Of a stretch of 64,000 bases of DNA, positions 10,461 through 56,824 are shown one piece after another. A program made the translations under genes and the position numbers. The notes beneath the pieces are model-generated. The model was not told the DNA's origin. It worked only from the letters and a program-made list of their open reading frames with translations, and did not search any database. Source of the stretch: Fimbriimonadaceae bacterium (GTDB taxonomy: Bacteria > Armatimonadota > Fimbriimonadia > Fimbriimonadales > Fimbriimonadaceae); the NCBI GenBank assembly GCA_022843485.1, contig JALHNM010000009.1, positions 1-64,000 on the forward strand, read 5' to 3'. Each line of letters opens with the position of its first letter. The stretch's first letter is position 1.

Positions 10461-10466
10461 TAAAGT
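10461..10466 (+). promoter_or_regulatory. -10 box TAAAGT of the first DinB-like gene
   Basis: TAAAGT ends 8 bases before ATG 10475. Transcription from it would start at or next to the start codon, giving a leaderless message. No convincing -35 element. Confidence 0.5.
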
Positions 10467-10474
10467 AGGGGTGT

Positions 10475-10948
10475 ATGAGGGACCACCGCTTCCAGGCCCT
10501 GACGGCCGCCCCGAAGATCGTCGAGCGCATCCTCCGCGCATACCCCCGCGACCGCTTCGACGAACGGCCGCACCTCGAAAGCCTGACCTCGCGAGAGATC
10601 GTGGCCCTGCTCGCCGACTCCGAGCAGGTCGTCCTCGACCGGATCCGCACCGCCAACCAGAAGCCGGGGAGCGTCGTCGAGTGGTACGAGCCCACGGTCC
10701 GCGCCAAGGAGAAGCACTACGCCGAGAAAGACCCGTTCCACGAGGGTGAGGTTTACGAGAGCCGGCGGCAGACCACGCTCGAGTACCTCGAGGGTATGGG
10801 CGCCGACGACTTCCAAAAGACCGTTACTCTGGATGGCCACGGCACCTACACGGTCTCGGACTACCTGACCTTGGTTCTCGCCCACGACGTCGAACGGATC
10901 GCGGAACTCAGCGAGTTCCTCGCCAACGAAGTCGCGACGATAGGCTGA
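10475..10948 (+). CDS. DinB/YfiT-like four-helix protein (157 aa)
   Basis: The predicted all-helical sequence, the length and the helix containing VLAHDVERIAEL (His-Asp near the C terminus) fit the DinB-like superfamily, whose members often bind a divalent metal through three histidines. Family functions range from thiol transfer to unknown, so no substrate is assigned. A paralogue-like gene sits at 23060. ATG 10475 is preceded by a TAAAGT box at 8 bases and is probably leaderless. Confidence 0.65.
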   Translation: MRDHRFQALTAAPKIVERILRAYPRDRFDERPHLESLTSREIVALLADSEQVVLDRIRTANQKPGSVVEWYEPTVRAKEKHYAEKDPFHEGEVYESRRQTTLEYLEGMGADDFQKTVTLDGHGTYTVSDYLTLVLAHDVERIAELSEFLANEVATIG

Positions 10949-10958
10949 GCGGCCCGCC

Positions 10959-10983
10959 GCCCCGGTCTCGTGCCGGCCGGGGC
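10959..10983 (+). terminator. Candidate hairpin after the DinB-like gene
   Basis: A 7-base stem GCCCCGG/CCGGGGC with an 11-base loop begins 11 bases after the stop codon. There is no T-run, so this is a structural call only. Confidence 0.4.
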
Positions 10984-11020
10984 TCCGCCGCATTCTCAAG
11001 CTCGTGTGAATTGGGGGGTG

Positions 11021-11038
11021 ATGGGCCCTTGGGCCCAT
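11021..11038. repeat. Hairpin ATGGGCCC-TT-GGGCCCAT
   Basis: Perfect 8-base arms around TT, lying 29 bases from the stop codon of the convergent CAP-domain gene. It may help terminate either strand, or be a protein site. Confidence 0.45.
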
Positions 11039-11067
11039 AGCGATGTGCGCGTGCAGTCCCCGCGAGG

Positions 11068-12165
11068 CTAGGATCCGGTGTTGAACGACCAGGGGAACTC
11101 GAGGGTCTGGCCGGACCTGGTGGTCAGGGTGATTCTGACCTCGACCTCGATCCGGGGCGGGAGGGGCTTCTCGGGGACGGCCACGACCCCGCCCTTCATG
11201 TGCGTGTCCGTCCGCCCGTCGCGCACGATGGCGGCAATGGTCTTGCCCCCCGCTTTGATGCTGACGGTCAGGTCGCGAACGTCGCGCTCGTCCCGGCCGT
11301 GTCGGAGCAGGATCGGATAGCCGTACGGCTGGTTGGGTCGCTTGGGGAAGCCCATCCCCCCGGGCCAATCGAGGGGCACATCGCCCACCCCGTCCGGCGG
11401 CGAAGGCACGGCGACCTTCTCAGTCTCGGGGCCGAAGAGGAGGCAGACGTAGTTGCCGTTGACCCCGACACCGAGGTCCGGTTCGCCAGGGGTCATGAAG
11501 TAGATCCGGTGATAGGGCGACCCGAAGATCGCGACGACCGAGTCTCGGACGTCGGTGGTCGCGAACCCGACCAGCTCTTCGGCAGGCCAGGGGTAGGCGA
11601 AGGTACGAAGGCGCTCGGGCACGGTCGCCGCGAGGAACCGTGGTTTGCCTGCGGTCTGGTCGTGGGTCACATCCTTGTTGGCGGCCAGGTAGTCGGCGTG
11701 GGCCTGGGCCGCCAGGACGAGTTCGGGGCTGGGGAGGGCCGGTTCCAGCCGGTGGTGGCCGCGGAGGGCGTTGACGAGCTCAAGGGCCTCGACCTGGCTC
11801 TGGGTCGGTGGCGGCGGTCCCTCGACCGCCCCGGGCTGCACGTCGAACGTCCACTCCCGGACGAACGGCACCTGTTCCGGCACCTTGACGATGCACTCCA
11901 CCGTGTTCTTACCCGCGGGTAGGGGGCCTTGGGGTCGGTAGACCACCGCCCCTAGCACCGGGTCGTAGGCTGCCTCGGCGGGTCGGCCGTTCAGCTTGAC
12001 CTCGACCTTCGGTGTTCCCACCGACCCAGCGAAACGGATGGGCCAGACGATGAGCGGGCGCGCGAAGCGGACGGCCCCCCTTGGAGAGGGCTCGGCATAG
12101 ACCGCCAACGGCGGCGCAGGATCCTGGCCCTGGGCTGCCAACAGTGAAAGAAAGAGCGACAACAC
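11068..12165 (-). CDS. Secreted CAP (SCP/PR-1) domain protein (365 aa)
   Basis: An N-terminal signal (LSLFLSLLAAQGQ) is followed by a beta-rich segment and then a CAP-like domain at about residues 125-275. It begins with ALELVNALRGHH, contains AQAHADYLA and THDQ, and has a conserved His near SPYHR. Bacterial CAP proteins are extracytoplasmic and mostly of unknown function. The open frame extends upstream into the polymerase gene. I chose GTG 12165 because it begins the signal peptide, has GGAG five bases before it, and has a TACAGT box nine bases before it. Confidence 0.75.
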   Translation of the reverse strand: MLSLFLSLLAAQGQDPAPPLAVYAEPSPRGAVRFARPLIVWPIRFAGSVGTPKVEVKLNGRPAEAAYDPVLGAVVYRPQGPLPAGKNTVECIVKVPEQVPFVREWTFDVQPGAVEGPPPPTQSQVEALELVNALRGHHRLEPALPSPELVLAAQAHADYLAANKDVTHDQTAGKPRFLAATVPERLRTFAYPWPAEELVGFATTDVRDSVVAIFGSPYHRIYFMTPGEPDLGVGVNGNYVCLLFGPETEKVAVPSPPDGVGDVPLDWPGGMGFPKRPNQPYGYPILLRHGRDERDVRDLTVSIKAGGKTIAAIVRDGRTDTHMKGGVVAVPEKPLPPRIEVEVRITLTTRSGQTLEFPWSFNTGS

Positions 12166-12174
12166 CGAAACTCC

Positions 12175-12180
12175 ACTGTA
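12175..12180 (-). promoter_or_regulatory. -10 box TACAGT of the CAP-domain gene
   Basis: It ends 9 bases before GTG 12165, in the 26-base gap after the polymerase stop codon at 12192. This gives the CAP gene its own promoter. Confidence 0.45.
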
Positions 12181-12191
12181 CTCGATGATTG

Positions 12192-15100
12192 TTAACGGGC
12201 GAGGAAGTCGGCCCGCACGATGGGCAGTTCTTCGCTCGTGTCGATGAGGGATTTGATGGTCGGCTCGTAGGGGAAGGCCCGTTTCGTCAAGAAGGCGGTG
12301 TGCCCGTCGCGCCATTGGGTGACGCCGATCAAGGTGAGGTACGGCTCGCAGACGATGGCGTGTCCGTCCCGTTGGTAGACCGCGTCGAAGCAGGTCACGT
12401 TCAGGAGCCCGGCCTCGTCCTCGAGGTCGAAGAAGACGACCCTCTTGCCGCTTGGCGTCGGCGGGAACCGTAGCCGGATCGGGTTGCCGACGACGATGGC
12501 CCGGCGTCCCGGGGGCAACCCCTTGACCTCGGCGGTGGTGAGCCCTCCCCGCGAAGAAACCCGTTCTCGCTCGAAGGCCATGAGGTGCCGTTCAACGTCG
12601 AGCCCGAGCACGATCCGCTCGCGAACGGCCTTCTCGGCGGGGGTGAAGTCGGCGACGGTCGGGTCGATCGTGGGCGCGGCTTCGTCCAACCCCAGCCCCC
12701 CTTGCGGGCGGTCCGCCGCTTCCAGGGTGGGGGCCACGGCCCAGAGCAGGGCACGGCGGTTGGGGCTGACCGTGTCCAGCGCCCCCGCAAGGATGAGGGC
12801 CTCCAGTTCGTCCCGGTTCGGCCGGACGCGGCGGACGAACTCGTAGAACGACGGTGCAGCGAGCCCGGCTCGGCCGCGATCCTCACCCCCCTGTCGGAAC
12901 TCGCGTACCGTGCGCTCAACCGTCGCCCGCCCGAGCCCGGCGATCGACGAGAGCCCCACGCGGATCCCCCCGCCGGGCACCAAGAGTCGGGGGTCCATCG
13001 AGGACTGCACGTCCTCGACCCGGTACCCGACGTCGCTCCGAAGCACGCACGGCGGAAGCACGACGATGCCTCGCGAACGGGCTTCGTTGACCAGGGTGCA
13101 CGGCCCGTAGTAGCCCGCCGGTTGGGCATCGAGCAAACCGGCGAAGTACGGCGCGGGGAAGTTTTGCTGGCAATAGACGGCCCGTAGCGAGATCTCGGCG
13201 AACGCGAGGGCATGACCCTGCGCGAACCCGTACCCCTTGAACCCGGCGATGAGCTCGAATACGTGCTCGGCCACTGCCTGGCTGTAACCGCGGGCGACGA
13301 TCCGTCCTAGGATCTCCTCGCGAAGCGTCTGGCCGTAGTCCTCCCGCCGGCGCTTGTGGATCGCGTCGCGGATGTCCTCGGCCTCGCCGCTGCCGTACCC
13401 GCCGAAGACCTGGAGCAGCTGATCGATCTGCTCCTGGAAGACCACGATGCCGTAGCTGATGCCGAGGATGCCCTCGAGATCGGGGTGCTCGAACGAGTAG
13501 GGCTTCAGCCCTCGGCGTCGGGCGATGAGCTCGTTGATCTTGACCGCGCCGCCCACTCCGGGCCGGATCCCGGCCTGGACGAGGCTCGCGTCGTGGAGGT
13601 CGGTGGTCTGGAGCCGCATGTGGGCCTGGCGCATCGCGGGGGAGGCGGACTGCGGGATGCCGATGAGCTCGCCCGACCGCATGGTGCGGAAGTTCTCCTC
13701 CGCCTCGGCGGGCAGGGCATCGACGTCGAAGTCGGGGTCCGAGCGGCGGAGCCACCGCTGGGCCCCCGACAGGGCGTCGTGGCCCCGCAGGCAGAGCACG
13801 TCGAACTTGTCGAAGTAGTGCTTCGCGCTGCGCTTGTCCCATTGGACGATCTTGAGCGGGGCCCCTTCGTCCTCGTCGTCGTCCCGGGCGGTGGTGGGTG
13901 GCTGCGGTCCAGCCCACTGCACGGGGACGGTGTCGGCGAGGGGGCGGTCCGAGACCACTATGCCGGACGAATGGGCCCGCATGTTGCGCGGGACGTCCGC
14001 CAGGGCGTCGGCGAGCCGGAACAGCCAGAAAAGACGCTCCTTCGGGATCTCGCTCGCTCTCAGCTCGGGCTTGCGGGCCAGGGCCTCCTCCAATTGGTCA
14101 GGCCGCACCCCACCGTGTAACCGTTTGGCGAGGAACCCGATCGCCTCTTGCGAGAGGCCCAGGGCCTTGCCCACCTCGCGGACGATGCCCCGGGTGCAGT
14201 AGGCGCCGACCGCTGCTACCGTGGCCACTCGATCCTGGCCATAGGTGTCGATGAGGTACTGACGGACGTCCTCTCGCCGGCGGGCCTCGAAGTCGATGTC
14301 GATGTCCGGCCGCTTACTGCCGTCCTCGGGGAGGAACCGGTCGAAGTGGAGGTCGTGGCGGAAGGCGTCGACCCGGCTGATGCCCAGGCAATAGGCCACC
14401 GCAGAGTCGACCATCGAGCCGCGACCGCTGAACAGGATGCCCTGTCCCCGGGCCCACCGGCACATGTCCCAAGCGACCAAGAAATGGTCGGCGTAGCCCA
14501 TGCGTACGATGCGGTCGACTTCGTTGTCGAGCCGCTTCTTATGTCGATTGCTCACCGAATGGTGGAACTGTCTCGCCCCGTCGGTGACCGCCTCGCGCAG
14601 TGCGGCGCCGGAGTCGGGGGCGAGAGCGGGAAGACGGGTGCGCCCAGGAAGCACGTCGTCGTCGCACAGTTCGGCGACCAGATGGGTCGCCTCGACCAAG
14701 TCCGGCCGGTCGGCGAAGAGGGCGACGGTCTCCTCCGACGGGCGCAGATACCGCTCGGCGTTTAGTGCGCGTGCCGGTCGATCGGCCACCTGGGGCTGAG
14801 TCGGGTGCCGCACCGGCTTGCGTCCCACGACCTCGTCCACCACGCACAGCGTGTCCGCACAGACGACGATGTCTTGGGTGGGGAAGTCGGACGGGTCCGC
14901 GTGAGTGACCGCCCCTCCCGCGACCGCACGAAGACCGAAACGTTCGGCAACCTCAAGAAGACGCGATTCGAGGGAAAGCCCCCAGGGCAGGTGGCTCCGC
15001 TCTACCTCCACGAACACGCTCTCGCGGCCGTAGAGACCCACCAAAAGGTCGAGCCAGTGCATCGCCCCTTCCTGGTCGCCCGCAAGGAGCAGCCGGGCCA

Positions 15101-15791
15101 GCCGCGCCTCGTCTCCGCCGGTGAGGCAAACGAGGCCCTCGGCGTGCTGCTCCATCCGCTCGACGGTGCACAGCGGGTAGAGCCGGGGCTCACAGAGGTG
15201 GCACTCCGTGACGAGACGCGAGAGCGAGCGATAGCCCGAGGCGTCCCGGGCGATGAGCACGACCTCCCCCCCTTCGGCCATCTCGAACGAGGCACCGATC
15301 AGCGGCTTGACTCCGTGGGCACGGGCTTCCCGTGCGAACTCGACCGCCCCCGTAAGGGCGAACCGATCCACCAACGCTGCAGCCGGAAGGCCGAGGAGGG
15401 CGCAACGCCGCGGGATCTCGCGGGCTAAGAGGACGCTCCGTCCGAACGAGTACCCCGACAGCAGGTGGAGGGGCACCCCCGCCCGCGTCGCCCCCCGCGC
15501 GGACCGCCCGGTCAGAAGCGACGGGCTCTCGGCTAGCAGCCCGCAAGCCTTGGCGACCTTCTCGTCGCGGGTCTTACGCGGCCGCAGGGCATAGTCCTCG
15601 CGGTGGTCCTCGACAGCGGTCGCCGGTGTGTAAGGGCCCGTCAGGGCGGGCAGCTCCCGGTCCTTCTCACGCCGCACCCCCCGGGCGTCGCGCCATTGGA
15701 CGAACTCCCGGGGCCGCTCGCCCTCCCACCAGGCCCCGGCCTCGCGCCACCGAGCGAGGACTTCCGGCCGTCGCGGCGGGCTCAATGCCAC
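12192..15791 (-). CDS. dnaE2: Error-prone DNA polymerase III alpha-like subunit, ImuC/DnaE2 type (about 1199 aa)
   Basis: A C-family polymerase expected to make the mutagenic insertion or extension step in SOS translesion synthesis. The catalytic aspartates are in PDIDIDFEA (about residue 494) and KFDVL. The finger motif GIPQSASPAMRQ, a helix-hairpin-helix (IAGLGRATVE) and a C-terminal OB fold (VFFDLEDEAGLLNVT) are also present. The N-terminal PHP domain is degenerate: the usual HxH reads HLL and the later DH pair reads DR. The first ~45 residues carry an RxAGAWWEGERPRE stretch of the kind found at ImuB C termini. The start is GTG 15791 or TTG 15785, both overlapping the imuB stop. Everything upstream in this frame is a shadow of imuB. 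Confidence 0.88.
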   Translation of the reverse strand: MALSPPRRPEVLARWREAGAWWEGERPREFVQWRDARGVRREKDRELPALTGPYTPATAVEDHREDYALRPRKTRDEKVAKACGLLAESPSLLTGRSARGATRAGVPLHLLSGYSFGRSVLLAREIPRRCALLGLPAAALVDRFALTGAVEFAREARAHGVKPLIGASFEMAEGGEVVLIARDASGYRSLSRLVTECHLCEPRLYPLCTVERMEQHAEGLVCLTGGDEARLARLLLAGDQEGAMHWLDLLVGLYGRESVFVEVERSHLPWGLSLESRLLEVAERFGLRAVAGGAVTHADPSDFPTQDIVVCADTLCVVDEVVGRKPVRHPTQPQVADRPARALNAERYLRPSEETVALFADRPDLVEATHLVAELCDDDVLPGRTRLPALAPDSGAALREAVTDGARQFHHSVSNRHKKRLDNEVDRIVRMGYADHFLVAWDMCRWARGQGILFSGRGSMVDSAVAYCLGISRVDAFRHDLHFDRFLPEDGSKRPDIDIDFEARRREDVRQYLIDTYGQDRVATVAAVGAYCTRGIVREVGKALGLSQEAIGFLAKRLHGGVRPDQLEEALARKPELRASEIPKERLFWLFRLADALADVPRNMRAHSSGIVVSDRPLADTVPVQWAGPQPPTTARDDDEDEGAPLKIVQWDKRSAKHYFDKFDVLCLRGHDALSGAQRWLRRSDPDFDVDALPAEAEENFRTMRSGELIGIPQSASPAMRQAHMRLQTTDLHDASLVQAGIRPGVGGAVKINELIARRRGLKPYSFEHPDLEGILGISYGIVVFQEQIDQLLQVFGGYGSGEAEDIRDAIHKRRREDYGQTLREEILGRIVARGYSQAVAEHVFELIAGFKGYGFAQGHALAFAEISLRAVYCQQNFPAPYFAGLLDAQPAGYYGPCTLVNEARSRGIVVLPPCVLRSDVGYRVEDVQSSMDPRLLVPGGGIRVGLSSIAGLGRATVERTVREFRQGGEDRGRAGLAAPSFYEFVRRVRPNRDELEALILAGALDTVSPNRRALLWAVAPTLEAADRPQGGLGLDEAAPTIDPTVADFTPAEKAVRERIVLGLDVERHLMAFERERVSSRGGLTTAEVKGLPPGRRAIVVGNPIRLRFPPTPSGKRVVFFDLEDEAGLLNVTCFDAVYQRDGHAIVCEPYLTLIGVTQWRDGHTAFLTKRAFPYEPTIKSLIDTSEELPIVRADFLAR

Positions 15792-16984
15792 CCCGTCGCC
15801 TCCCGCCACGCCCGCAGGACCCGCAGCCGTCGCGGGAGCACGACGTCGCTCGCCCGGACGACCGCCCCGTCCCCGAACGCCGCCCGTACCGACCGCAAAG
15901 CCGTCTCCGCCGTGTGCTCCCGTTCGTCGCGGGTCTCCATGGTCGCCAGGCTCCGTTGGACGCGCGGCGCCGGCCGCAGACCGGGCATCACCCCACGCAC
16001 CGCGACCGGCGCGAACGGCGGGCCGTCGCCCATCAGCGCCCCCAACCCCACCCGCAACGGCCGAGCCGCCTGGACGGGGCGCGCCAACTGCCGCCGTCTC
16101 ACGAGCGGCACCCCCGACTCCGGTTCGACCACCAGCTCGAGCCGGTCGCCGATCCGGTCGCTCGCGCAGAGCGCCTGTGCCAGCCGGGTCGCCAACTCGG
16201 TGAGCCCCGCCTCGAGCACGGACCGGTCCGCGACCGGCCCCTCGAAGGCCACCCGCTCGCTCACCGCGTCCGCAGGGTAGAGCGGCCGCGCCCGGTCGAG
16301 GCACCGTCCCTGCGCCGCCTGCTGGATGAGCGGCCCCGACCGGCCGAACTGGGCCGTGAGCAGGCGCAACGGCGCTGCCGCGACCTGGCCGACCCGCCGG
16401 TAGCCCAGGAACTCCAGCCGCTCGCGATGGGCAGGCTCGACCGGGGAGAGGCACCCCGTGGGCAGCGGGGCCAGGAACCCAGCCGGGTCGGTCACCGCCT
16501 CAAGGACCGGCACCCCCAACCCCAACGCCTTCGCCTCGCAAGGTTGCGCCGCCAACTGGGCCAGCCACTTGCCCGGTGCCAGCCCCGCCCGGACTAGCAG
16601 CCCCGTCCGTGTAGCGACCTCCCGCAGGAGCTCGTTCGCGGTGCCCATCGGGTCGGGGTGAAGGCTCAGATCGACCCAGGCCTCGTGGGGCATCCCCGGT
16701 TCGACCGTCTCGCTGAAGGCAGCGCACACGTCCAGCCAGGCGTCCCGGGCCGCGCGGGTCTCCTGCTCAGAGTAAGACAGGTACACCCCGTCCTCGCGCA
16801 GGATCGCCTTCGCCTCGCTCAACGGGGTACCAGGCCCGACCCGCCGGGCTCGAGCGGCGGGGCCGGAGTCGAGGACCGCACCGTCCCGGTGGACCACGAT
16901 CGCCCGCCCCCCCCAGTCCGCCCGCCCCGCCAGAGCCGCGGCGGCATAGAACCCGTCCAGGGACACGTAGAGCAGAGAGTGCAT
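15782..16984 (-). CDS. imuB: ImuB-like Y-family pseudo-polymerase (400 aa)
   Basis: A Y-family fold that in known ImuB proteins acts as a non-catalytic adaptor between the beta clamp and DnaE2. The palm motif reads YVSLDGFYAA, so the first catalytic Asp is Ser8. The second site reads MPHEAW, so its Asp is His100 while Glu101 remains. Two of three catalytic acids are therefore lost. I do not see a clamp-binding motif. It overlaps dnaE2 by about 10 bases, so the two are co-transcribed. No imuA is adjacent. The promoter (16996-17025) contains a 7-base inverted repeat, and the leader before ATG 16984 is only about 4-5 bases. Confidence 0.85.
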   Translation of the reverse strand: MHSLLYVSLDGFYAAAALAGRADWGGRAIVVHRDGAVLDSGPAARARRVGPGTPLSEAKAILREDGVYLSYSEQETRAARDAWLDVCAAFSETVEPGMPHEAWVDLSLHPDPMGTANELLREVATRTGLLVRAGLAPGKWLAQLAAQPCEAKALGLGVPVLEAVTDPAGFLAPLPTGCLSPVEPAHRERLEFLGYRRVGQVAAAPLRLLTAQFGRSGPLIQQAAQGRCLDRARPLYPADAVSERVAFEGPVADRSVLEAGLTELATRLAQALCASDRIGDRLELVVEPESGVPLVRRRQLARPVQAARPLRVGLGALMGDGPPFAPVAVRGVMPGLRPAPRVQRSLATMETRDEREHTAETALRSVRAAFGDGAVVRASDVVLPRRLRVLRAWREATGWH

Positions 16985-16995
16985 CTTTGTCTACT

Positions 16996-17025
16996 ATTAT
17001 ACGTCGGTCAGCGCCCGACGTTCAA
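16996..17025 (-). promoter_or_regulatory. imuB promoter with internal inverted repeat (candidate SOS operator)
   Basis: On the minus strand: TTGAAC (17025-17020), an 18-base spacer, then TATAAT (17001-16996), 11 bases before ATG 16984. Between and overlapping the two boxes lie ACGTCGG (17001-17007) and its exact complement CCGACGT (17015-17021), 7 bases apart. The position is ideal for repression by a damage-responsive regulator. The sequence matches neither the classic CTGT-N8-ACAG nor the CGAAC-N4-GTTCG LexA box. Confidence 0.6.
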
Positions 17026-17086
17026 GAGGGCAGACCGGGCGCGATGCCCAGCCTGCCCCCTAGCCCCAGTTCAACTGAACCTGCGT

Positions 17087-19195
17087 TCAGTACCGCTCGC
17101 GGAGCCGCTGGCCCATCGCGTTCAAGGTAAAGGCGTAGACGTCCCTGACCTCCTCGAGCTGCTTCGAGAGCGGCTTCCCGGCCCCGTGCCCCGCACTGGT
17201 CTCGATTCGGATGAGCACGGGCGGGCCGTCCTTCGCCTGAGCCGCCTGGAGCCGGGCGGCGAACTTGAACGAGTGCGCGGGGACCACCCGGTCGTCGGTG
17301 TCCGCCGTCGTGACGAGCGTCGCCGGGTACCGGACCCCGTCGCGCAAGGCGTGGTAGGGCGAGATCCGATAGAGGAACCGGAACTCGTCCTCGTTCTGCG
17401 GCGACCCGTAGTCCCCCTCCCACGCCCGCCCGATGGTGAACTGGTTGAACCGCAGCATGTCCATGACCCCGACCTCAGGGATGGCGACAGCGAACAGGTC
17501 GGGCCGCTGCGTCATACACGCCCCGACGAGCAGGCCCCCGTTCGACCCGCCCTGGATCGCCAGCCGTCCCGGCGAGGTGTACCCCTGGGCGATGAGCCAC
17601 TCTGCACAGGCGATGAAGTCGTCGTAGGCGTTCTGCCGCTTCGTCTTGATCGCCGCCTCGTGCCAAGCCTTGCCGTACTCGCTCCCGCCCCGGATACAGG
17701 CTAGAGCCCACACCCCGCCGTTGTCCATCCAGGCCGTGCGCGACGAACTGAACCAGGGCTGCATCGCGGCCCCGAACCCGCCGTAACCGTAGAGCAGGGT
17801 CGGGTTCGTGCCGTCGAGCTTCAGCCCCTTGCGGTGGACCAAGAAGACAGGCACTCGCGTCCCGTCCTTGCTGGTCACGAACGCTTGCTTCGTCTCGTAC
17901 CCCGTCGCGTCGAAGGGCAGCTTCGGCGCCCGGTAGACCGACACCCGATCGTCCTCGATGTCGAAGCGGTACACCGTACTGGGCGTCGCGAGGTCGGTGT
18001 AGGAGAAGAACGTGACGGCGTCCCCTTCCTCCCCTCCGAACCCGCTGGCCGTGCCCGGGCCGGGCAGGGCCACCTCGCCCAGCGGCTCGCCGCTGGGCGA
18101 GAACGTGACGACGGCCGACCGAGCGTCTCGCAGGTACTGGGCGAACAACCGACCCCCGACGAAGCTCACGCCCTGCAGCGCGTCCTCGCCTTCGGGCACG
18201 ACCGTCTCCCAGTGCTCCGGCTGCGGGCGGTCGACGTCCACGACGACGACCCTGCCCCGCGGGGCGTCCTTCGTCGTCGCGACCCACACCTTCTTGCCCT
18301 CGCGGTGGACCGGTGTGTAGTCCGCGTCGTTCTCCGTGAAGAGCGCCACCGGCTTCGCACCCGGCTCCGTGAGGTCCAGCATCGTGAGCCGGTTATTGAC
18401 CGACCCTGGTTCGCCGATCGTGATCCAAAGCGTCTCCCGCTCGGCGTCGAGGCTGGGCCAGACGAGCCACTCCGGCGTGTCCGGCTTCGAAAAGACAAGT
18501 CGATCCTCGCTCTGAGGCGTACCGAACTCGTGGTACCGGACCTCCGGGTCCTTGTTCTCGCTCACGAACGCCTCGCCCGCTTTCGGCTCGGGGTAACGCA
18601 GGTAGTAGAACCCTTTCGCCTCACGGTCCAACCCCCCAACCCCGAACTTGGACCACTTCACGGTGTCCGGCTTCTCCTTCCCGCTATCGACGTCCATCGC
18701 TCGCCACTCGGTCCAGTCCGAGCCGGCCCGCGACTTCGCGAAGAGCAGCGTCTTGCCGTCTCGGCTCAGGTCAAGTCCGACCAATGCGACCGTCCCGTCC
18801 GAGCTCCACGAGTTCGGGTCGAGCAGCACCCGCCCCTCGCCGTCCAGCGAATCGGCCACATAGAGCACCGACTGGTTCTGGAGCCCGTCGTTCCGCTGGT
18901 ACAGCAAGCGCCCGCCTCTGAGCAGCGGGACCGAGAACTTCTCGAAGTCCGCCCGCCGACGCAACTCGGCGAGCAGCGCGTCACGGTGCGGGACCCGATC
19001 GAGGAACCCGAAGGTCAGCTGGTTCTGGGCCGCGATCCACTGGTTCACCTCGGGAGTGGACGCAGGTTGTTCGAGCCACCGGTAAGGATCGGCGACCCGC
19101 ACCCCGTGGAAGACGTCCGCCACATCGACCGTCTTCGTCTTGGGATAGTCGAGTGTGTCCATAGCGATCAGAGCGGCGACCGTGAGCGCGATCAT
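17087..19195 (-). CDS. Prolyl oligopeptidase, family S9A (702 aa)
   Basis: A serine peptidase cleaving short peptides after proline. The N-terminal part (about 20-430) is the beta-propeller. The catalytic alpha/beta-hydrolase domain carries the Ser in QGGSNGGLL, the Asp in TADTDDRVVPAHS and the His in SAGHGAGKP. Length and DPYRWLE near the N terminus are typical of the family. The first ~12 residues (MIALTVAALIA) are hydrophobic and could be a weak signal, or the protein may start at Met12. ATG 19195 has a TAGAGT box 7 bases upstream, supporting a leaderless start there. Confidence 0.93.
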   Translation of the reverse strand: MIALTVAALIAMDTLDYPKTKTVDVADVFHGVRVADPYRWLEQPASTPEVNQWIAAQNQLTFGFLDRVPHRDALLAELRRRADFEKFSVPLLRGGRLLYQRNDGLQNQSVLYVADSLDGEGRVLLDPNSWSSDGTVALVGLDLSRDGKTLLFAKSRAGSDWTEWRAMDVDSGKEKPDTVKWSKFGVGGLDREAKGFYYLRYPEPKAGEAFVSENKDPEVRYHEFGTPQSEDRLVFSKPDTPEWLVWPSLDAERETLWITIGEPGSVNNRLTMLDLTEPGAKPVALFTENDADYTPVHREGKKVWVATTKDAPRGRVVVVDVDRPQPEHWETVVPEGEDALQGVSFVGGRLFAQYLRDARSAVVTFSPSGEPLGEVALPGPGTASGFGGEEGDAVTFFSYTDLATPSTVYRFDIEDDRVSVYRAPKLPFDATGYETKQAFVTSKDGTRVPVFLVHRKGLKLDGTNPTLLYGYGGFGAAMQPWFSSSRTAWMDNGGVWALACIRGGSEYGKAWHEAAIKTKRQNAYDDFIACAEWLIAQGYTSPGRLAIQGGSNGGLLVGACMTQRPDLFAVAIPEVGVMDMLRFNQFTIGRAWEGDYGSPQNEDEFRFLYRISPYHALRDGVRYPATLVTTADTDDRVVPAHSFKFAARLQAAQAKDGPPVLIRIETSAGHGAGKPLSKQLEEVRDVYAFTLNAMGQRLRERY

Positions 19196-19202: not shown

Positions 19203-19208
19203 ACTCTA
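19203..19208 (-). promoter_or_regulatory. -10 box TAGAGT of the prolyl oligopeptidase gene
   Basis: It ends 7 bases before ATG 19195. No ribosome site fits between them. Confidence 0.5.
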
Positions 19209-21385: not shown

Positions 21386-21391
21386 ATTGTA
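21386..21391 (-). promoter_or_regulatory. -10 box TACAAT of sucC
   Basis: It ends 9 bases before ATG 21376, in the short gap after the GNAT gene. Confidence 0.5.
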
Positions 21392-23527: not shown

Positions 23528-23564
23528 GCCCCGCAACGCGCTCGTTTCCGGCCAGACTCGAACC

Positions 23565-25834: not shown

Positions 25835-25840
25835 AGGATA
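25835..25840 (-). promoter_or_regulatory. -10 box TATCCT of the nucleoside phosphorylase gene
   Basis: It ends 6 bases before GTG 25828, giving a leaderless GTG start. The divergent beta-CASP gene begins only 33 bases from this start. Confidence 0.5.
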
Positions 25841-25861
25841 CCGTCGGCCATACTGGCCCGC

Positions 25862-28036: not shown

Positions 28037-28527
28037 GCGCCCCGGACCCCCAGCGTCGCGCTGACCTCGTCAAAGTCGGCGTCGCCCTGCTGGCCCTGAT
28101 CGCCTTGGTCGTGCTCCTCCTGCTGGATCGCGGCCGCCGCCCTAATCCGGCCGAGCCCGCCCCAGCTCCGGCTGCCGGTGGCTCGCCCAACCCACCGCCT
28201 TTGGAGCGGCCTGCCGCCGAGCCGCCCCCGGCCGTTTCCGCCCCGCGGGCGCCGTCGGTGACGTACCCTCCGGACGGGGCCGAAGTCACCGTTGAGACGG
28301 TGCGCCTCTTCGGCTGGGGCGACCCGGGGGCCGGGGTGGAGGTCACCCTCGACGGTAGGACGATCGCCTCGACCGAGGTCTCGGCCGATTCCCGGTGGAC
28401 GACGACCGTCACCCTCGAGCCCGGGGAGCGACGCCTGGTCCTCGTGTCCGAGCGATCGGGCCAGCGGTCGGCCGAGTCCGTCGTCACCTACCGGATGGTG
28501 CCCACCGGTCGGCGCGACGGCCAGTAG
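28033..28527 (+). CDS. Single-pass membrane protein with extracytoplasmic Ig-like domain (164 aa)
   Basis: A transmembrane helix at about 13-34 (VGVALLALIALVVLLLL) is followed by a Pro/Ala-rich linker and an Ig-like or carbohydrate-binding-like beta domain (about 75-155, PSVTYPPDGAEVTVETVRLFGW...). The topology suggests the beta domain lies outside. I do not recognise a specific family. It starts at GTG 28033, overlapping the previous stop. Its own TAG stop forms the first half of the mfd -10 box. Confidence 0.6.
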   Translation: MSAPDPQRRADLVKVGVALLALIALVVLLLLDRGRRPNPAEPAPAPAAGGSPNPPPLERPAAEPPPAVSAPRAPSVTYPPDGAEVTVETVRLFGWGDPGAGVEVTLDGRTIASTEVSADSRWTTTVTLEPGERRLVLVSERSGQRSAESVVTYRMVPTGRRDGQ

Positions 28528-28530
28528 ACT
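28525..28530 (+). promoter_or_regulatory. -10 box TAGACT of mfd, sharing the upstream stop codon
   Basis: TAG at 28525-28527 is the stop codon of the preceding gene and the first half of TAGACT, which ends 9 bases before GTG 28540. The mfd message from this promoter would be leaderless. Confidence 0.5.
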
Positions 28531-32173: not shown

Positions 32174-32320
32174 TTACAGTTCCTGCGACTCGCCCCGCCA
32201 AAGCACGGCGGCCATCAGGATCGAAGCGAGATGAGTCCAACGCCAGACAGCTTTCTTCATGCGTCCCATCCGGACACGTGGAGTCTTGCGCTCCCAACGG
32301 TTTGCGACGACCACGGCCAT
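32174..32320 (-). CDS. Small basic protein, 48 aa, leaderless
   Basis: ATG 32320 to TAA 32174 encodes a very basic N-terminal half (NRWERKTPRVRMGRMKKAVWR) followed by a short hydrophobic stretch (THLASILMAAVLW). I do not recognise it. A perfect TATAAT ends exactly 6 bases before the ATG, which would place the transcription start at the start codon as for many neighbours here. A hairpin follows the stop. It fills an otherwise empty 340-base gap between mfd and the M14 peptidase. It is too short to be judged by length, so the call rests on the promoter and the codon pattern. Confidence 0.5.
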   Translation of the reverse strand: MAVVVANRWERKTPRVRMGRMKKAVWRWTHLASILMAAVLWRGESQEL

Positions 32321-32326: not shown

Positions 32327-32332
32327 ATTATA
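32327..32332 (-). promoter_or_regulatory. -10 box TATAAT before the 48-residue gene
   Basis: An exact consensus box ending 6 bases before ATG 32320. The -35 region is weak. Confidence 0.6.
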
Positions 32333-34863: not shown

Positions 34864-34869
34864 AGGGTA
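34864..34869 (-). promoter_or_regulatory. -10 box TACCCT of the outer-membrane barrel gene
   Basis: It ends 6 bases before ATG 34857. It overlaps the alternative GTG start, which argues against that start. Confidence 0.45.
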
Positions 34870-34898: not shown

Positions 34899-34904
34899 TA
34901 GCCT
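34899..34904 (+). promoter_or_regulatory. -10 box TAGCCT of the lhgO-like gene
   Basis: It ends 7 bases before TTG 34912. It is divergent from the box at 34864-34869, with only about 30 bases between them. Confidence 0.45.
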
Positions 34905-37286: not shown

Positions 37287-37292
37287 AGGATG
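37287..37292 (-). promoter_or_regulatory. -10-like box CATCCT of the DegT aminotransferase gene
   Basis: It ends 7 bases before ATG 37279. It differs from TANNNT at the first base only. Confidence 0.35.
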
Positions 37293-37437
37293 GCACAACT
37301 TCGGGGGCGCGGGTCAATCCGACTCGGACAAGGGGAGTCGTATGCGACCCGGCAAGACCCGGTCTCCCGAAGGCCCTCCGCGGCGGTACGCGGGCCGGGC
37401 CCGGCCCCGACCGCGGGTCCGGCCACACTCCGGCGTA

Positions 37438-39709: not shown

Positions 39710-39715
39710 TACGCT
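39710..39715 (+). promoter_or_regulatory. -10 box TACGCT of purB
   Basis: It ends 8 bases before GTG 39724, giving a leaderless GTG start. Confidence 0.5.
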
Positions 39716-49143: not shown

Positions 49144-49149
49144 ATTATG
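49144..49149 (-). promoter_or_regulatory. -10 box CATAAT of the GT-C gene and downstream operon
   Basis: It ends 7 bases before ATG 49136. It is divergent from the box at 49154-49159, with only 4 bases between the two. Confidence 0.5.
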
Positions 49150-49153: not shown

Positions 49154-49159
49154 TACGAT
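49154..49159 (+). promoter_or_regulatory. -10 box TACGAT of the ABC-2 permease gene
   Basis: It ends 9 bases before ATG 49169. It is back to back with the GT-C -10 box, so the two promoters probably compete. Confidence 0.5.
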
Positions 49160-52218: not shown

Positions 52219-53288
52219 TCAATGCTCCGAAGGAGACCGATAGCCAGGGCGAAGAACAAGAGGTTTGGTGTCCACGCTGCTAGTGCGGGGGGCAACCAGC
52301 CAAGCCTTCCTAGGATCTCTGAGCTGATGACGTTAAGGTTGAAGTGCATCCAAACGACGGACAGGCTGAAGAGGACACCCACGAAAGGTCCGCTGCGAGA
52401 AAGCTTTATGGACAACAGCGCTCCGTTGAGGGCGAAGATGAAGCACGAGAACGGAAGGGCGAACTTCTGATGAAGGGCCACCTCTTGGCGAATAGTAGGT
52501 TGCCTTGCGTTCTTTAGAGACGCGACTGCTGCTTTTAACGAGGCGACGGTCTCCTCTTCCGGCAGGGGTTGGGTAAAGAGGTCTATCAAACGAATCGGTT
52601 CGTTTAGCGACAAGGAGTCCTGGGACACTACGGTGTTCAGAGTCGCACCTTGGAGTCGGTATACGGTGGGCCTCCTGATCGTCCAAACCCCGTCGCGATA
52701 CTCGCCGTTCGGACTTGTGTATATGACTGTTTCGCCGCGCCGTGGGCGCTCGAACAGGACGATGTCGGTAAGGTTGACCGTAAGTCCGCTACCGCGTGAG
52801 ACAGTCCCGAGGCTAGCGGTGAACCGGTCGATTTGTAGGATCACGTTCGAACGGAACTGGGGTACGGTCCCTAGAACCCCAATCTGGGCGGCGAGCCTAC
52901 GATACTCCTTGAGCGCTGGAGGGACTACGTGTTCGACGAGCGTAAAGTTGAGCACACCAATAAGGAGGCCGACAACGAGCCCGGGGGCGCAGACGCGGAT
53001 GACTCGGATTCCGCTCGCCCGCATGGCAGTGACCTCGCTCTCCCTGGCAAGCCTGGAAAGGGCGAGACTCGTGCCCAAGGCAGCCCCAATCGGCAGAGTA
53101 AGGCTGAGCCACTGAGGAAGCTTGAGCAGTAAGAGCTGAAGGATCGCTGTCCCGGGGATAGCGTCAACGTTTAGGGACTTGAAGATCGCTATCATGTCGT
53201 TTGCGACGAACAGGAGCGCGATGAGGACAGTTCCGATCACGAGAGGGATCAGTAGTTCAAGGATGACGTAGCGATCAAGTCTCTTCAT
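52215..53288 (-). CDS. lptF/lptG: LptF/LptG-family LPS export permease (357 aa)
   Basis: Inner-membrane subunit of the LPS transporter. Three N-terminal helices (LLIPLVIGTVLIALLFVAND, PQWLSLTLPIGAALGTSLAL and the next pair), a periplasmic beta-jellyroll (about 135-245) and three C-terminal helices fit the family. TMRASGIRV-like SEVTAMRASGIRVIRV is the cytoplasmic loop seen in LptF/G. ATG 53288 is used because MKRLDRYVILE is the family start. Only one LptF/G-type gene is here. The coupled lptD partner follows. Confidence 0.88.
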   Translation of the reverse strand: MKRLDRYVILELLIPLVIGTVLIALLFVANDMIAIFKSLNVDAIPGTAILQLLLLKLPQWLSLTLPIGAALGTSLALSRLARESEVTAMRASGIRVIRVCAPGLVVGLLIGVLNFTLVEHVVPPALKEYRRLAAQIGVLGTVPQFRSNVILQIDRFTASLGTVSRGSGLTVNLTDIVLFERPRRGETVIYTSPNGEYRDGVWTIRRPTVYRLQGATLNTVVSQDSLSLNEPIRLIDLFTQPLPEEETVASLKAAVASLKNARQPTIRQEVALHQKFALPFSCFIFALNGALLSIKLSRSGPFVGVLFSLSVVWMHFNLNVISSEILGRLGWLPPALAAWTPNLLFFALAIGLLRSIE

Positions 53289-53299
53289 TATGTCCAGAG

Positions 53300-54097
53300 T
53301 CAACGCTTCGTGAAGGATCGTAGTAGAAGCCAAGCCCCCACTGCAAGCTGAATGGCGATGAGCGAGATTGCGAGGGCCGGGTGCGTCTGGGTGAGTTGTG
53401 CCGCGGTCGGGAGGCCGACGACGGCAAGGACGATCACGATCCAGGCCGAAATGAAGGGCTTGACGTATCCCTTTCCTAGCCAGCGTCCTCTGACAAGATC
53501 CTTCAAGTAGGGTCGTCCGCAGTGGCCGCAATCGAGGCTGCCCAGGTCGTTCGTTCGCCCACAATGGGGACAAGGCGTGGGGTTCATCGCTGCGTGCGGT
53601 AACGGGTTGCTCCGCCAGACCCGGTAGGTTTGGTGTTCCTGCCGAAAGTGAGACTCAGGCATGGACGGAAGGACCCTGCTTAGAAGCGCGAGACCATGCC
53701 CTGGAAACCCTCGATCGTAGACCAGGACGGCCATACGATAGATGGCATAAACGTTGTCGGGGCGAAGACGGGCAGTCTCATCCAGCTTCTCCAACTGCTC
53801 AAAGTCAAGAGCATTCAGTGCCGTTCGGTGAGCCACGGCCTTATAGACAGGGAAAAGGATGATAGTCAGGAGGATGGCGAGGAAGGAAAGGATGCCGAGG
53901 TGTGGTGCTGGAGGCACAATCGTCAAGTACCCAAGCGTGAGGCCGACACCAACCGCAAGGATCCCTGGCCCAGTCTCGATCTCGCCTGCGACGATCCATC
54001 CGATAACGGCGATCATCCATATGGCGAGGGGAACCCAAACGACGCAGGCGGCGAGGGCACCGAGAGGACTTTCGATGACTCGGTCTTGGAAGTTCAA
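53300..54097 (-). CDS. Membrane protein with central zinc ribbon (265 aa)
   Basis: Not recognised. Three or so transmembrane helices near the N terminus and two near the C terminus (AWIVIVLAVVGLPTAAQL and AISLIAIQLAVGAWLLL) surround a cytoplasmic part containing PCPHCGRTNDLGSLDCGHCGRPY, a four-cysteine zinc ribbon. A helical segment before it (FEQLEKLDETARLRPDNVYAIYRMAVLVY) is TPR-like. It starts at TTG 54097, overlapping the plsY stop as TTGA. Its position between plsY and the lpt genes suggests an envelope role. Confidence 0.6.
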   Translation of the reverse strand: MNFQDRVIESPLGALAACVVWVPLAIWMIAVIGWIVAGEIETGPGILAVGVGLTLGYLTIVPPAPHLGILSFLAILLTIILFPVYKAVAHRTALNALDFEQLEKLDETARLRPDNVYAIYRMAVLVYDRGFPGHGLALLSRVLPSMPESHFRQEHQTYRVWRSNPLPHAAMNPTPCPHCGRTNDLGSLDCGHCGRPYLKDLVRGRWLGKGYVKPFISAWIVIVLAVVGLPTAAQLTQTHPALAISLIAIQLAVGAWLLLRSFTKR

Positions 54098-54759
54098 GGG
54101 GCCTCCTTAGTGGCCGTTGCCTCGGTCTGGCTAGAATCTGCGTTCGCACCGAAACGGAGGGGCTTCTCCTGTCCTTTGAGCAAGCGGCCGATGTTCTCGC
54201 GATGCTTCCAGAACACGTAAGCGACAAGTACGCCGTAGACCCATAGAAAGAGTGGGCTCTGCTTCGTGACGTAGCCTGCGACGAGTACGAGAGTAGCTCC
54301 CACTAAACTCGCAAGACTGACTATGCGTGTCGGCAAGAATAGGATTATGAAGCCAGAGAAACCGGCGACTCCGACAACGGGGGCAGTGCCGAGGAGCGCC
54401 CCCAGGCCGGTCGCTATCCCCTTGCCCCCGCGAAACCGCAAGAACGGAGAGAGGGAGTGCCCGATCACGGCAAGCGATCCCAGGAAGAGTGAGTGGTCCC
54501 GAGCGTCGAGGCTCCAGATGGATGGTGATTGAGAGGCGAACCAGAGCCCGCCGAGCGCAGCAGGAACGGTCCCCTTGACGACGTCGAGCAGGAACACGAA
54601 GACCCCGAGTTTCGGTCCCAAGGCGCGAGCCACGTTAGTCGCACCAGGGTTACCGCTCCCGAATGACAAGAGATCCACCCCTTTCGCACGGGCGACGAGC
54701 ACGCCGAACGGAATCGAGCCGACAAGGTAAGCGGTGAAGTACAGAAGGACTGGGATCAA
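54094..54759 (-). CDS. plsY: Glycerol-3-phosphate acyltransferase (221 aa)
   Basis: Transfers the acyl group from acyl-phosphate to glycerol-3-phosphate in the first membrane step of phospholipid synthesis. Characteristic motifs are YLVGSIPFGVL, FGSGNPGATNVARALG, LLDVVKGTVPA and RFRGGKGIATGLGALLG. Multi-pass topology and length are normal. It starts at TTG 54759 with a clear GAGGAGA ribosome site four bases before it, one of the few strong sites inside an operon here. Confidence 0.93.
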   Translation of the reverse strand: MIPVLLYFTAYLVGSIPFGVLVARAKGVDLLSFGSGNPGATNVARALGPKLGVFVFLLDVVKGTVPAALGGLWFASQSPSIWSLDARDHSLFLGSLAVIGHSLSPFLRFRGGKGIATGLGALLGTAPVVGVAGFSGFIILFLPTRIVSLASLVGATLVLVAGYVTKQSPLFLWVYGVLVAYVFWKHRENIGRLLKGQEKPLRFGANADSSQTEATATKEAP

Positions 54760-54768
54760 GGTCTCTCC

Positions 54769-56046
54769 TCAGTGTAGACGTTGGATCCCTTCCTGAAAGA
54801 TCGAGTGTGTCACGTCGCGGTACCCTTCGAACGCTGCCAAGAACCCGTTGCCTTCCGTCATGCCAAAGGATTCAGCCAGTCGGGCGAGTTTATCCGGGTT
54901 CTCGGGGACCACGTCGTCCGGACAGCCCAGGAGGGCCAGGCGAGCCTGAGTCTCGGTCAAGAACCGCCAGGCGTCTTCCAGGGCTTCGCGCTCAATAGGG
55001 CTCAGGAAGCCCGCATCGCGTAAGGCGAGGAGGCGGTCGGGAGTCCGGAGCGGCCGGGCGATCACCGGTGACCTAAGGAGGGCCAGATCGATCAGCCAGT
55101 CCAATTCGTGCAGGTTCACATGCCGACGACGGTATTGAACGGCGAGCGAAGCGTCCTGATGACGCTTGAGGTGGAGCCAGTCGTCCAAGGGCCGAGTGGA
55201 GGGCGCGAGGTACGGGCCAAGGTCCACCGGCTTGCCAGCCAAGACGGCGCTCCGAGCGAGTGCGAGGCAGAGTCGTTCCTCGGTTTCCGGCCCCGGCATG
55301 GGTGGTGGGCCCGCCAGCCAGGCAGTGAGTCCTCCGCCGCCCGCTTCGACCCTGGTGAGAGACCGTACCCCCTCGCTCGCCAGTGCGCTCGGCAGCTCGT
55401 CCCAGCCGCCTCCCGCGCTGGCCACTGCGATTTCGGCCGGGCAGAGCGGGAGCGCCTCATCCGCCGCAAAGCGCCCGACTGCGATCAAGGTCCCTCCCTC
55501 CTTGCTGGCCGAAAGGGCACGACGGAGCGAAGCCGAGTACTCAGCGGCGAGGTCGAAGGAGGGGTCGAGAGCCCACGTCGCCGTCCGCAAGGTCCAGCCC
55601 CGAGCCGACTCCGGACTGTCGGTCCACTGGGAAAGCCCCGGGACGTCACGGACGAGGAACGGGAACAGTGCGGGCGAGGTGCGGGTGAGTCGCTCTAGGC
55701 GCTGAAGGGCCGGGTTCTTGTCGGCCAGTCGGTCGCCGCCAGTCACCGAGGCCAGGACGCCGCCGAGCAGGCCAGGCGAATGGGCAAAGTGCCGCGCGAC
55801 CTCGGGCGTGAGCCCGGCGACGACCGCGGCCCAGGCCCCACCCCCCTCGGTCGCTTCGAGGGCTGCGAGGGTCTTCAGCGGAGAGGGAACCGTTCGAAGC
55901 CACCGACCGAGGTTGGCTAGCGCTGCGTCCGAGTCGGTGGCGTGACCACACCACGCCTCGACCTTCGAGCCCCATGTCCCCGGCCCGAGCCGGTCGAAGG
56001 CCGCGAGCTCCCGGGTCGCAGCCTCCTGGTCGCGAAAAGTGCTCAG
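54769..56046 (-). CDS. Degenerate GlnE-like protein, probable CTG start (425 aa)
   Basis: Resembles the N-terminal half of glutamine synthetase adenylyltransferase/deadenylylase: early helices with LANLGRWL and VARHFAHSPGLLGGVL, a middle nucleotidyltransferase-like block, then HELDWLIDLALLRSP, PLRTPDRLLALRDAGFLS and EALEDAWRFLTETQARLAL. The catalytic G-GRELN-SSD-D motif is replaced by VGRFAADEALPLCPAEIAVAS, so activity is unlikely. The visible GTG at 55746 cuts the homologous helices. The frame runs unbroken to CTG 56046, which overlaps the nth stop as CTGA. Nothing else in that interval can start. Confidence 0.6.
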   Translation of the reverse strand: MSTFRDQEAATRELAAFDRLGPGTWGSKVEAWCGHATDSDAALANLGRWLRTVPSPLKTLAALEATEGGGAWAAVVAGLTPEVARHFAHSPGLLGGVLASVTGGDRLADKNPALQRLERLTRTSPALFPFLVRDVPGLSQWTDSPESARGWTLRTATWALDPSFDLAAEYSASLRRALSASKEGGTLIAVGRFAADEALPLCPAEIAVASAGGGWDELPSALASEGVRSLTRVEAGGGGLTAWLAGPPPMPGPETEERLCLALARSAVLAGKPVDLGPYLAPSTRPLDDWLHLKRHQDASLAVQYRRRHVNLHELDWLIDLALLRSPVIARPLRTPDRLLALRDAGFLSPIEREALEDAWRFLTETQARLALLGCPDDVVPENPDKLARLAESFGMTEGNGFLAAFEGYRDVTHSIFQEGIQRLH

Positions 56047-56807
56047 GCGGCCCCCCGAACCCTAGCGCTGCTGCGCTTCCGAGCCGCAGCGGCCCTAGCT
56101 TTGTCCGGCCCCACCCGCCGGCGCCAGACGCAAAGGTCTGCGACTGGGCAGACTTTACAGTCCGGGATCGGGGCCCGGCACACCTTGCGACCGTGCTGGA
56201 TGAACGTCGTGTGGAACCGGAACGCGGCCTCGGGTGGGATCATCCGCCTGAGCTCGCGATGGGCGGCCCGCTCGTCCGTCTCGCTTCCGATTAGGCCCAA
56301 ACGCTGGCACACCCGGTACACGTGCGTATCGACCGGGATGGCGGGCTGGCCGAAGGAGAAGCCCATCACGATGGCCGCAGTTTTCGGTCCGACGCCAGGG
56401 AGGGACTCGAGCCATGTGAGCGCGTCGTCGAGGGCCCTCGCCCGGAGCGGCTCGAGCGTGTAACCACCGAACTCGACCCTGATCCGGCCGAGACAGGCCA
56501 CGATCGCCTTTGCCTTCTGGTTCGCCAGCCCCGCCTTCCGTACGACCTCGGCCACCTCTTCCCAACCCGCCGCCTCGACCTCGCCCCAGGAGGGGTACCG
56601 CTCGAGGAGCCGCGTGAAGGCGGGGAACGTGTTAGCGTCCGCCGAGTGTTGGCTCAGGATGCAGCTCACAAGCTCCTCCATGGGGTCGAACCGCGGGATC
56701 TCACGGGTGCGACCGTGGACTCGTTCGAGGGTCTCGAGGACCAGCATTGGATCGACCGAGGGACGGCGGGCGCGGGCCTTTGGACGCCGTCTCACGGGGG
56801 CTGCCAT
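56043..56807 (-). CDS. nth: Endonuclease III (254 aa)
   Basis: DNA glycosylase/AP lyase for oxidised pyrimidines. It has the helix-hairpin-helix LESLPGVGPKTAAIV with the catalytic Lys, the catalytic Asp in PVDTHVYRV, and a [4Fe-4S] site spaced C-x6-C-x2-C-x5-C (CRAPIPDCKVCPVADLC). The extra ~15 basic residues at each end are mild additions. The start is ATG 56807, since upstream frame is antisense to the lipoprotein; TATCCT ends 7 bases before it. Confidence 0.95.
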   Translation of the reverse strand: MAAPVRRRPKARARRPSVDPMLVLETLERVHGRTREIPRFDPMEELVSCILSQHSADANTFPAFTRLLERYPSWGEVEAAGWEEVAEVVRKAGLANQKAKAIVACLGRIRVEFGGYTLEPLRARALDDALTWLESLPGVGPKTAAIVMGFSFGQPAIPVDTHVYRVCQRLGLIGSETDERAAHRELRRMIPPEAAFRFHTTFIQHGRKVCRAPIPDCKVCPVADLCVWRRRVGPDKARAAAARKRSSARVRGAA

Positions 56808-56814
56808 GCGTCGA

Positions 56815-56820
56815 AGGATA
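56815..56820 (-). promoter_or_regulatory. -10 box TATCCT of nth, overlapping the divergent -10 box
   Basis: It ends 7 bases before ATG 56807. It shares bases 56819-56820 with the plus-strand box TACACT of the lipoprotein gene. Confidence 0.55.
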
Positions 56821-56824
56821 CACT
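56819..56824 (+). promoter_or_regulatory. -10 box TACACT of the lipoprotein/manC operon
   Basis: It ends 8 bases before ATG 56833. It overlaps the nth box by two bases, so both promoters cannot be open at once. Confidence 0.55.

Follow-up and report, generated by a model that had tools for sequence, protein, structure and literature searches.

Start-codon-proximal -10 boxes suggest common leaderless gene starts in a Fimbriimonadaceae bacterium (Armatimonadota) with an unusual main sigma factor

The DNA analysed here, referred to throughout as the window, is a stretch of 64,000 nucleotides (contig JALHNM010000009.1, positions 1 to 64,000 of the forward strand) from Fimbriimonadaceae bacterium, whose genome (assembly GCA_022843485.1, label G000) comprises 2.96 Mb in 20 contigs. 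Its genes include ones preceded, a few bases before the start codon, by a hexamer of the form TANNNT (Table 1). These boxes are very probably -10 promoter elements of consensus GGTANA(C/A)T, mostly lacking a -35 element, that would place the predicted transcript start on or near the start codon. A first-pass annotation had listed thirteen starts with TANNNT ending 6–9 bases before ATG, GTG or TTG, and all thirteen boxes were found, as were the CATAAT and CATCCT it gave before 49136 (-) and 37279 (-) and the TATAAT 11 bases before the imuB-like gene at 16984 (-). The gene table of the window holds 48 genes, of which 11 carry TANNNT at 6–9 bases against ~0.9 expected (background 0.0047 per position per gene). 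The same annotation had drawn its parallels from Deinococcota and Actinobacteria, which misplaces the host: the Mfd-like protein has four named relatives, of which three belong to Armatimonadota (70% identity), including a Fimbriimonadaceae metagenome-assembled genome (MAG), and the fourth comes from a distant proteobacterial MAG (36% identity), so that the relatives point to Armatimonadota and not to Deinococcota.

Table 1. Boxes of the TANNNT form and of the form with C at -12 upstream of gene starts in the window. Spacing is the number of bases stated between box and start codon.
Box	Position	Strand	Spacing	Start	Gene or remark
TAAAGT	10461..10466	+	8	ATG 10475	-10-like; DinB-like
TACAGT	12175..12180	-	9	GTG 12165	CAP-domain protein; model P(start) 0.70
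TATAAT	16996..17001	-	11	ATG 16984	imuB-like, Pfam IMS
TAGAGT	19203..19208	-	7	ATG 19195	prolyl oligopeptidase
TACAAT	21386..21391	-	9	ATG 21376	ATP-grasp/CoA ligase, succinyl-CoA synthetase beta-like
CAGACT (-12 C form)	23553..23558	+	6	GTG 23565	
TATCCT	25835..25840	-	6	GTG 25828	PNP/UDP phosphorylase family
CATACT (-12 C form)	25849..25854	+	7	ATG 25862	33-bp intergenic to 25828, back to back
TAGACT	28525..28530	+	9	GTG 28540	Mfd-like
TATAAT	32327..32332	-	6	ATG 32320	48-amino-acid open reading frame
TACCCT	34864..34869	-	6	ATG 34857	no Pfam match
TAGCCT	34899..34904	+	7	TTG 34912	DAO family
CATCCT (-12 C form)	37287..37292	-	7	ATG 37279	
CACACT (-12 C form)	37424..37429	+	8	ATG 37438	
TACGCT	39710..39715	+	8	GTG 39724	adenylosuccinate lyase family
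CATAAT (-12 C form)	49144..49149	-	7	ATG 49136	32-bp intergenic to 49169, back to back
TACGAT	49154..49159	+	9	ATG 49169	ABC-2 membrane protein
TATCCT	56815..56820	-	7	ATG 56807	HhH-GPD glycosylase/endonuclease family; 2-bp overlap with next box
TACACT	56819..56824	+	8	ATG 56833	

The genome-scale test covered the first 800 kb of contig 1 (27% of the genome) as two 400-kb blocks. Starts were set by coding potential alone, using a gene finder that relies on codon usage only and is blind to the box. TANNNT at a spacing of 6–9 bases preceded 108 of 745 genes against 13.8 expected (52/360 and 56/385 in the two blocks, with 6.8 and 6.5 expected), a positive outcome for the scan for positional enrichment that the first-pass annotation had called for. 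In a 400-kb run of 356 genes, with positions 20–59 upstream as background, spacings 6, 7, 8 and 9 were taken by 16, 11, 15 and 9 genes, in total 51 against ~6.7 expected. The boxes could in principle be an artefact of start calling or of GC-rich composition: the thirteen listed ones had been chosen partly by the box, and the starts at 56807 and 12165 are uncertain. The signal nevertheless holds with coding-only starts, seven decoy codons (ATC, GTC, TTC, CTG, GCG, AAG and ATT) sampled from the same 400-kb regions as the starts give no TANNNT peak, displaced decoys carry almost none of it, and GC-rich Armatimonadota processed by the same pipeline show little or no signal (G092, GC 0.644, 0/68; G072, GC 0.602, 0/76; G075, GC 0.662, 1/71 vs 0.8 expected; G073, GC 0.641, 3/86 vs 1.8). 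These controls refute the artefact reading. The same script, applied as a positive control to a 150-kb portion of a Deinococcus deserti plasmid, gave 12/116 vs 2.4 expected, with the same peak. For the window, a start model trained on a different contig of this genome agrees with 11 of the 13 listed starts.

The boxes follow gene context, with transcription units inferred from gene order only and two genes at sequence ends omitted from the counts. A box at 6–9 bases was present at 54 of 240 genes whose upstream neighbour is divergent, at same-strand genes in 12/107, 26/142 and 15/67 cases for gaps of >=100, 30–99 and 5–29 bases, respectively, and at only 1 of 187 overlapping or abutting genes (Fisher 5e-14 against divergent genes); four-base motifs resembling a Shine-Dalgarno (SD) site ran in the reverse direction (divergent 39/240, overlapping 86/187). 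An expectation-maximization (EM) mixture with a hidden start and three classes assigned 0.37 of genes to a leaderless type (bootstrap 0.34–0.40), 0.08 to neither class and 0.55 to an SD type, the last share being probably too high since the learned SD profile is loose; that class probably absorbs genes without any signal. The leaderless share fell to 0.02 on sequence displaced by 20–30 bases, and was 0.52 (0.47–0.57) in divergent genes and 0.11 in overlapping ones. Summed over the 48 predicted genes of the window, the mixture gave 21.4 leaderless, 22.5 SD and 4.1 neither, with a mean leaderless value of 0.60 in 20 divergent genes vs 0.02 in 10 overlapping genes. About a third of genes, and roughly half of those that open a transcript, thus seem to start on leaderless messages, and most of the remaining genes look SD-led. 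The description of leaderless transcription as the default of this genome was therefore overstated (~37% of genes and 52% of divergent ones, with SD-like signals in most others and an intact anti-SD); given the contrast of 0.52 with 0.11 it is fair at most for transcript-opening genes. Loss of the anti-SD was considered as a cause of leaderless starts and rejected: the 16S 3' end terminates ..GGATCACCTCCTT, with the anti-SD intact.

The same context bears on whether the boxes, instead of being promoters, act in translation as A/U-rich, S1-type or unstructured initiation regions. Such biases are reported from SD-poor phyla (PMC5397173), but here only the TA...T letters and their box neighbours are fixed, together with two upstream Gs; boxes are nearly absent from overlapping genes, although these need translation too; and GGTANNNT is 10.6 times as dense between genes as inside them. 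Already disfavoured on these grounds, the translation-signal reading is very improbable. In their short fixed spacing, absence of SD and placement at first genes, not operon-internal ones, the boxed starts have the features described for the TA-like leaderless class (PMC3160421).

Promoter architecture was examined in 203 aligned confident leaderless-type cases. The two Gs upstream of the box carry 0.34 bit each, and information stays at or below 0.06 bit at every position from -45 to -3 relative to the box, which leaves no -35 consensus. SD-like 4-mers lie between box and start in just 6 of the 203, in keeping with the earlier statement that this interval has no room for a ribosome site. Elsewhere in the genome, classical TTGACA followed by TANNNT at 15–19 bases occurs at 9 intergenic and 0 coding sites, and TTGCAT-18-TATAAT lies ~220 bases before the 16S gene. 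From the motif, its spacing and its context we infer that transcripts start at the start codon or only a few bases from it, which would yield mRNA without a leader on which the ribosome would start at a 5'-terminal AUG or GUG; a second class of genes, chiefly inside operons, would have promoters further upstream and SD leaders.

How exactly the predicted transcript start coincides with the codon can be judged from the spacing. With the usual distance from -10 to +1, only a spacing of 6 or 7 would place the start precisely at the codon. Spacers of 6 to 11 bases were found at 39, 17, 27, 25, 11 and 8 ATG genes, and 44 of 56 GTG genes had a spacing of 6–7; divided at <=7 vs >=8, GTG genes split 46/10 and ATG genes 58/85 (p 1e-7, unchanged with a flat spacer prior), as if GUG had to be the exact 5' end and AUG tolerated a few leader bases. 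C immediately precedes the codon in 38/63 cases at spacing 6, compared with 97/253 SD-type genes, which would suit a pyrimidine-purine start. Spacings of 8–12 could leave leaders of 1–5 bases, and the alternative that many transcripts have such leaders, with near-leaderless genes common and 5'-terminal start codons a minority, draws on these distributions and on the G before the codon at spacing 8 (11/31) and 9 (16/29), which suits a start one base early. At spacing 8, by contrast, purines are underrepresented at the seventh base after the box (25%, n=32), as if a start there were avoided, a point weakened by the lack of such depletion at spacing 9 (62%, n=29). We hold this alternative to be possible, though the less probable choice.

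Several further observations weigh against a uniform set of leaderless, -35-free starts. The broad ATG spacing (6–11) means that some genes may carry leaders of 1–5 bases; C precedes the codon in just 12/31 cases at spacing 8 and 10/29 at spacing 9; and TTGAC occurs 18–23 bases upstream of the box in 7 of the 203 promoters (background 0.0), so a few boxed promoters keep a -35. For the listed start 56807 the start model prefers 56747, but part of the orthologues back the longer form: 6 of 11 strong family orthologues align with it from residues 3–8, although in two of the six the matched stretch contains an in-frame stop, and the other five begin at residues 12–23. The first-pass annotation had included TTG among the leaderless start codons, and this stands for TTG 34912 itself, which is well supported because the Pfam DAO domain begins at residue 4; as a general leaderless class TTG was rejected, with 3 boxes at 6–9 among 201 in-frame TTG candidates (background ~4.6), 2 among 30 chosen TTG starts (background ~1) and 4 TTG starts among the 203 confident cases.

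Since a -35 is not needed, a pair of genes can be placed back to back. Both sides are leaderless-type in 27 of the 120 divergent pairs; the smallest gaps are 20, 23, 31 and 33 bp, and in the shortest pairs a single stretch can act as the -10 of both genes. The window holds three such pairs (25828/25862, 49136/49169 and 56807/56833), the boxes of the last overlapping by 2 bases.

Other features of the window were as follows. A full TATAAT (32327-32332, -) lies in a gap next to mfd, where it may drive expression of a small protein or an RNA. The 48-amino-acid reading frame at 32320 was not called by the gene finder, so this box may serve no protein gene, and the window has no Rfam match at gathering score. 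At 12192-16984 (-) the imuB-like gene directly precedes a DnaE-type polymerase gene, the box of the first gene lying at 11 bases; we take the pair to resemble a mutagenesis cassette. The protein at 9069-9665 (+) ends in what we presume, by eye, to be a PEP-CTERM-like sorting signal.

Conservation was assessed at mfd, whose start is fixed by protein alignment: [TC]ANNNT at 7–10 bases, with no SD, was found in 16 of 16 family relatives (14 TA and 2 CA; in two pairs the upstream sequences are the same). Less favourable to a conserved arrangement, the named mfd relatives L005-L007 have boxes at 11 and 12 in two cases and, in the third, no start codon at the aligned place, and leaderless genes of the window's genome were also leaderless in only 4/9 orthologues in G103, 0/4 in G077, 2/2 in G108, 1/3 in G013 and 2/6 in G096; mfd aside, the class is only loosely kept between orthologues. 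EM shares in relatives, taken from 80–100-kb samples, were 0.42 in G103, 0.38 in G108 and 0.19 in G077, 0.31 (decoy 0.09) in G013 of a second family, 0.19 in an 80-kb sample of G096, 0.07 in G056, 0.06 in G073, and 0–0.02 in G021, G072, G032, G095, G092, G076, G027 and G075; G002 (72% N) was excluded from these sample counts. For 31 chosen genomes a whole-genome ratio was computed, counting GGTANNNT followed by RTG at 6–9 vs 18–21 bases. The ratio was 1.72–2.60 in all 8 genomes counted of the 17 sampled from the window's family and 1.86 and 1.94 in both genomes of genus g22 of the second family; at 1.06, it did not bear out the weak sample signal of G096. The box signal is thus real in the examined 27% of the genome and, by pattern count, in the whole genome, and the trait is clade-bound, being restricted, among the genomes counted, to the window's family and one genus of a second family.

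The main RpoD-like sigma factor of the window's genome (L184, contig 2) matches SigA and RpoD chains over regions 2, 3 and 4 (phmmer). By E. coli numbers, assigned via equal-length matched ranges (96-327 = 373-604 of E. coli RpoD), it has Arg437, Ala440 and Tyr455, and lacks the Gln437 and Thr440 of region 2.4 that mark canonical RpoD/SigA. Two types were distinguished in residue alignments from which rows G056b and G103b were left out. In type 1, Gln437 and His455 are invariant and Thr440 nearly so (10 proteins); in type 2, Arg437, Ala440 and Tyr455 are invariant in 8/8 aligned proteins, and Arg437 and Ala440 recur in further type-2 rows of a larger alignment. A tree of 48 proteins (48 of 49 rows; G056b included, G105 skipped with only 36 residues) placed the types in separate clades, and four families have both. 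Profile searches of 121 genomes found no type-1 match above 423 bits in the 17 own-family genomes, against 490–615 bits in the 18 type-1 genomes compared. Only two proteins of the window's genome pass the cut with either sigma profile; own_b, another of its sigmas, is far from both types. L201 (contig 1, near 519510) is a second sigma-70 group protein of this genome in which His-Trp replaces Trp-Trp, with other changes in region 2.4. G064, G089 and G104 lack both a high-scoring canonical sigma and the leaderless signal, and their type-2 sigma scores lower. CarD was considered as a helper of -35-less promoters and rejected: no stand-alone CarD was found in the window's genome, where the sole PF02559 match lies in Mfd, and SD-led G032 has two stand-alone genes, so CarD does not track the trait.

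The altered residues lie where -12 and -14 are read: Q437H and T440I suppress a T-to-C change at -12, and H455 and E458 contact the -14 G:C (PMC2613000), while Q437 and T440 are reported as conserved across the phyla examined in PMC8407463. The predicted tolerance of C at -12 was seen near the genome's own gene starts (51 vs 24.2 expected; D. deserti gave 7 vs 6.2) and not in whole-genome counts of GGCANNNT, whose pooled ratio was 1.03 in ten leaderless-rich genomes and 1.02 in 14 others. A relaxed -12 was therefore rejected as a whole-genome signature, and, since these counts are not raised, the tolerance is a matter of gene-anchored counts in one genome.

The sigma type and the leaderless trait coincide among the 31 genomes. 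All ten positive genomes (8 own-family, 2 g22) are without a high-scoring type-1 sigma; type-2 residues are known for nine of them, G071 being placed by score only (514 bits). None of the 18 genomes with type 1 is leaderless-rich (ratios 0.89–1.26). The association has a Fisher p of 6e-6, with the cut of 1.5 set after the ratios were seen and the genomes related. Most telling is the split within the second family, g22 against the type-1 genomes G038, G084, G094 and G114. The sigma link is put forward as a hypothesis, and much counts against it. Nine of the 18 type-1 genomes show a weak excess (1.12–1.26, p <0.05); the three g59 genomes without type 1 (G064, G089 and G104) show no signal (1.07–1.15), though their best type-2 score is lower (~440 bits vs 514–528); there were two or three independent events, so few origins; and Deinococcota are leaderless with a canonical sigma. 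At least six of the ten leaderless-rich genomes (G077, G108, G093, G098, G013 and G071) have a second protein on the canonical side (379–423 bits); those of G077 (L196) and G108 (L199) are divergent canonical-like sigmas with Gln437, Ser440 and His455 that group with type 1 in the tree, next to SD-led G027. No such divergent sigma was seen in the window's genome, but its retention in several leaderless-rich genomes weighs against replacement.

Under the hypothesis, a housekeeping sigma paralogue altered in the residues reading -12 and -14 would have taken over in the window's family and one genus of the second, and made -35-less promoters ordinary: an extended -10 read alone by the type-2 sigma would free promoters from the -35, so that they could slide onto start codons. 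In its strongest form, with an old paralogue (Arg437, Ala440, Tyr455) displacing canonical RpoD at least twice and driving a genome-wide change from SD to leaderless starts, this scenario is rather unlikely. The missing high-scoring canonical RpoD and the changed residues nonetheless offer a concrete, testable cause, and the sharp difference between related families a natural experiment on why bacteria go leaderless. Armatimonadota would join the short list of phyla with common leaderless expression, and gene finders tuned to SD sites may misplace starts in this group. Among the papers listed by literature searches, none was found to report on gene starts in Armatimonadota, with an entry in the supplement of the many-phyla study PMC12340547 possible.

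The kind of gene start described here is known from other phyla; what is new is that it occurs in a patchy manner and goes together with a main sigma of an unusual kind. Back-to-back bidirectional promoters with overlapping or abutting opposite -10 boxes are also known; here, the boxes of either direction lead straight onto a start codon, and the two genes can be as little as 20 bp apart. Leaderless genes of Actinobacteria start on ATG or GTG and coexist with an SD class. They differ in phylum, and in that no stand-alone CarD was found in the window's genome, and they share TANNNT beside the start, the TAnnnT pattern being given for high-GC groups with a mean of 19.2% (PMC3160421). Closest are the -10-motif leaderless genes of Deinococcus-Thermus, put at ~30% of open reading frames (PMC12340547) or 39.4% on average (PMC3160421). 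Both systems have TANNNT a few bases before the reading frame, a second GGAG class, mostly no classical -35 and about a third of reading frames involved; the armatimonad promoters likewise rely on the -10 alone (no -35 consensus in the 203, 7 with TTGAC at 18–23). The work on Deinococcus has reporter and RNA evidence, and the armatimonad case is known from sequence. Unlike Deinococcus-Thermus, the armatimonad has GG before the box, tolerates C at -12 near gene starts and uses a non-canonical main sigma.

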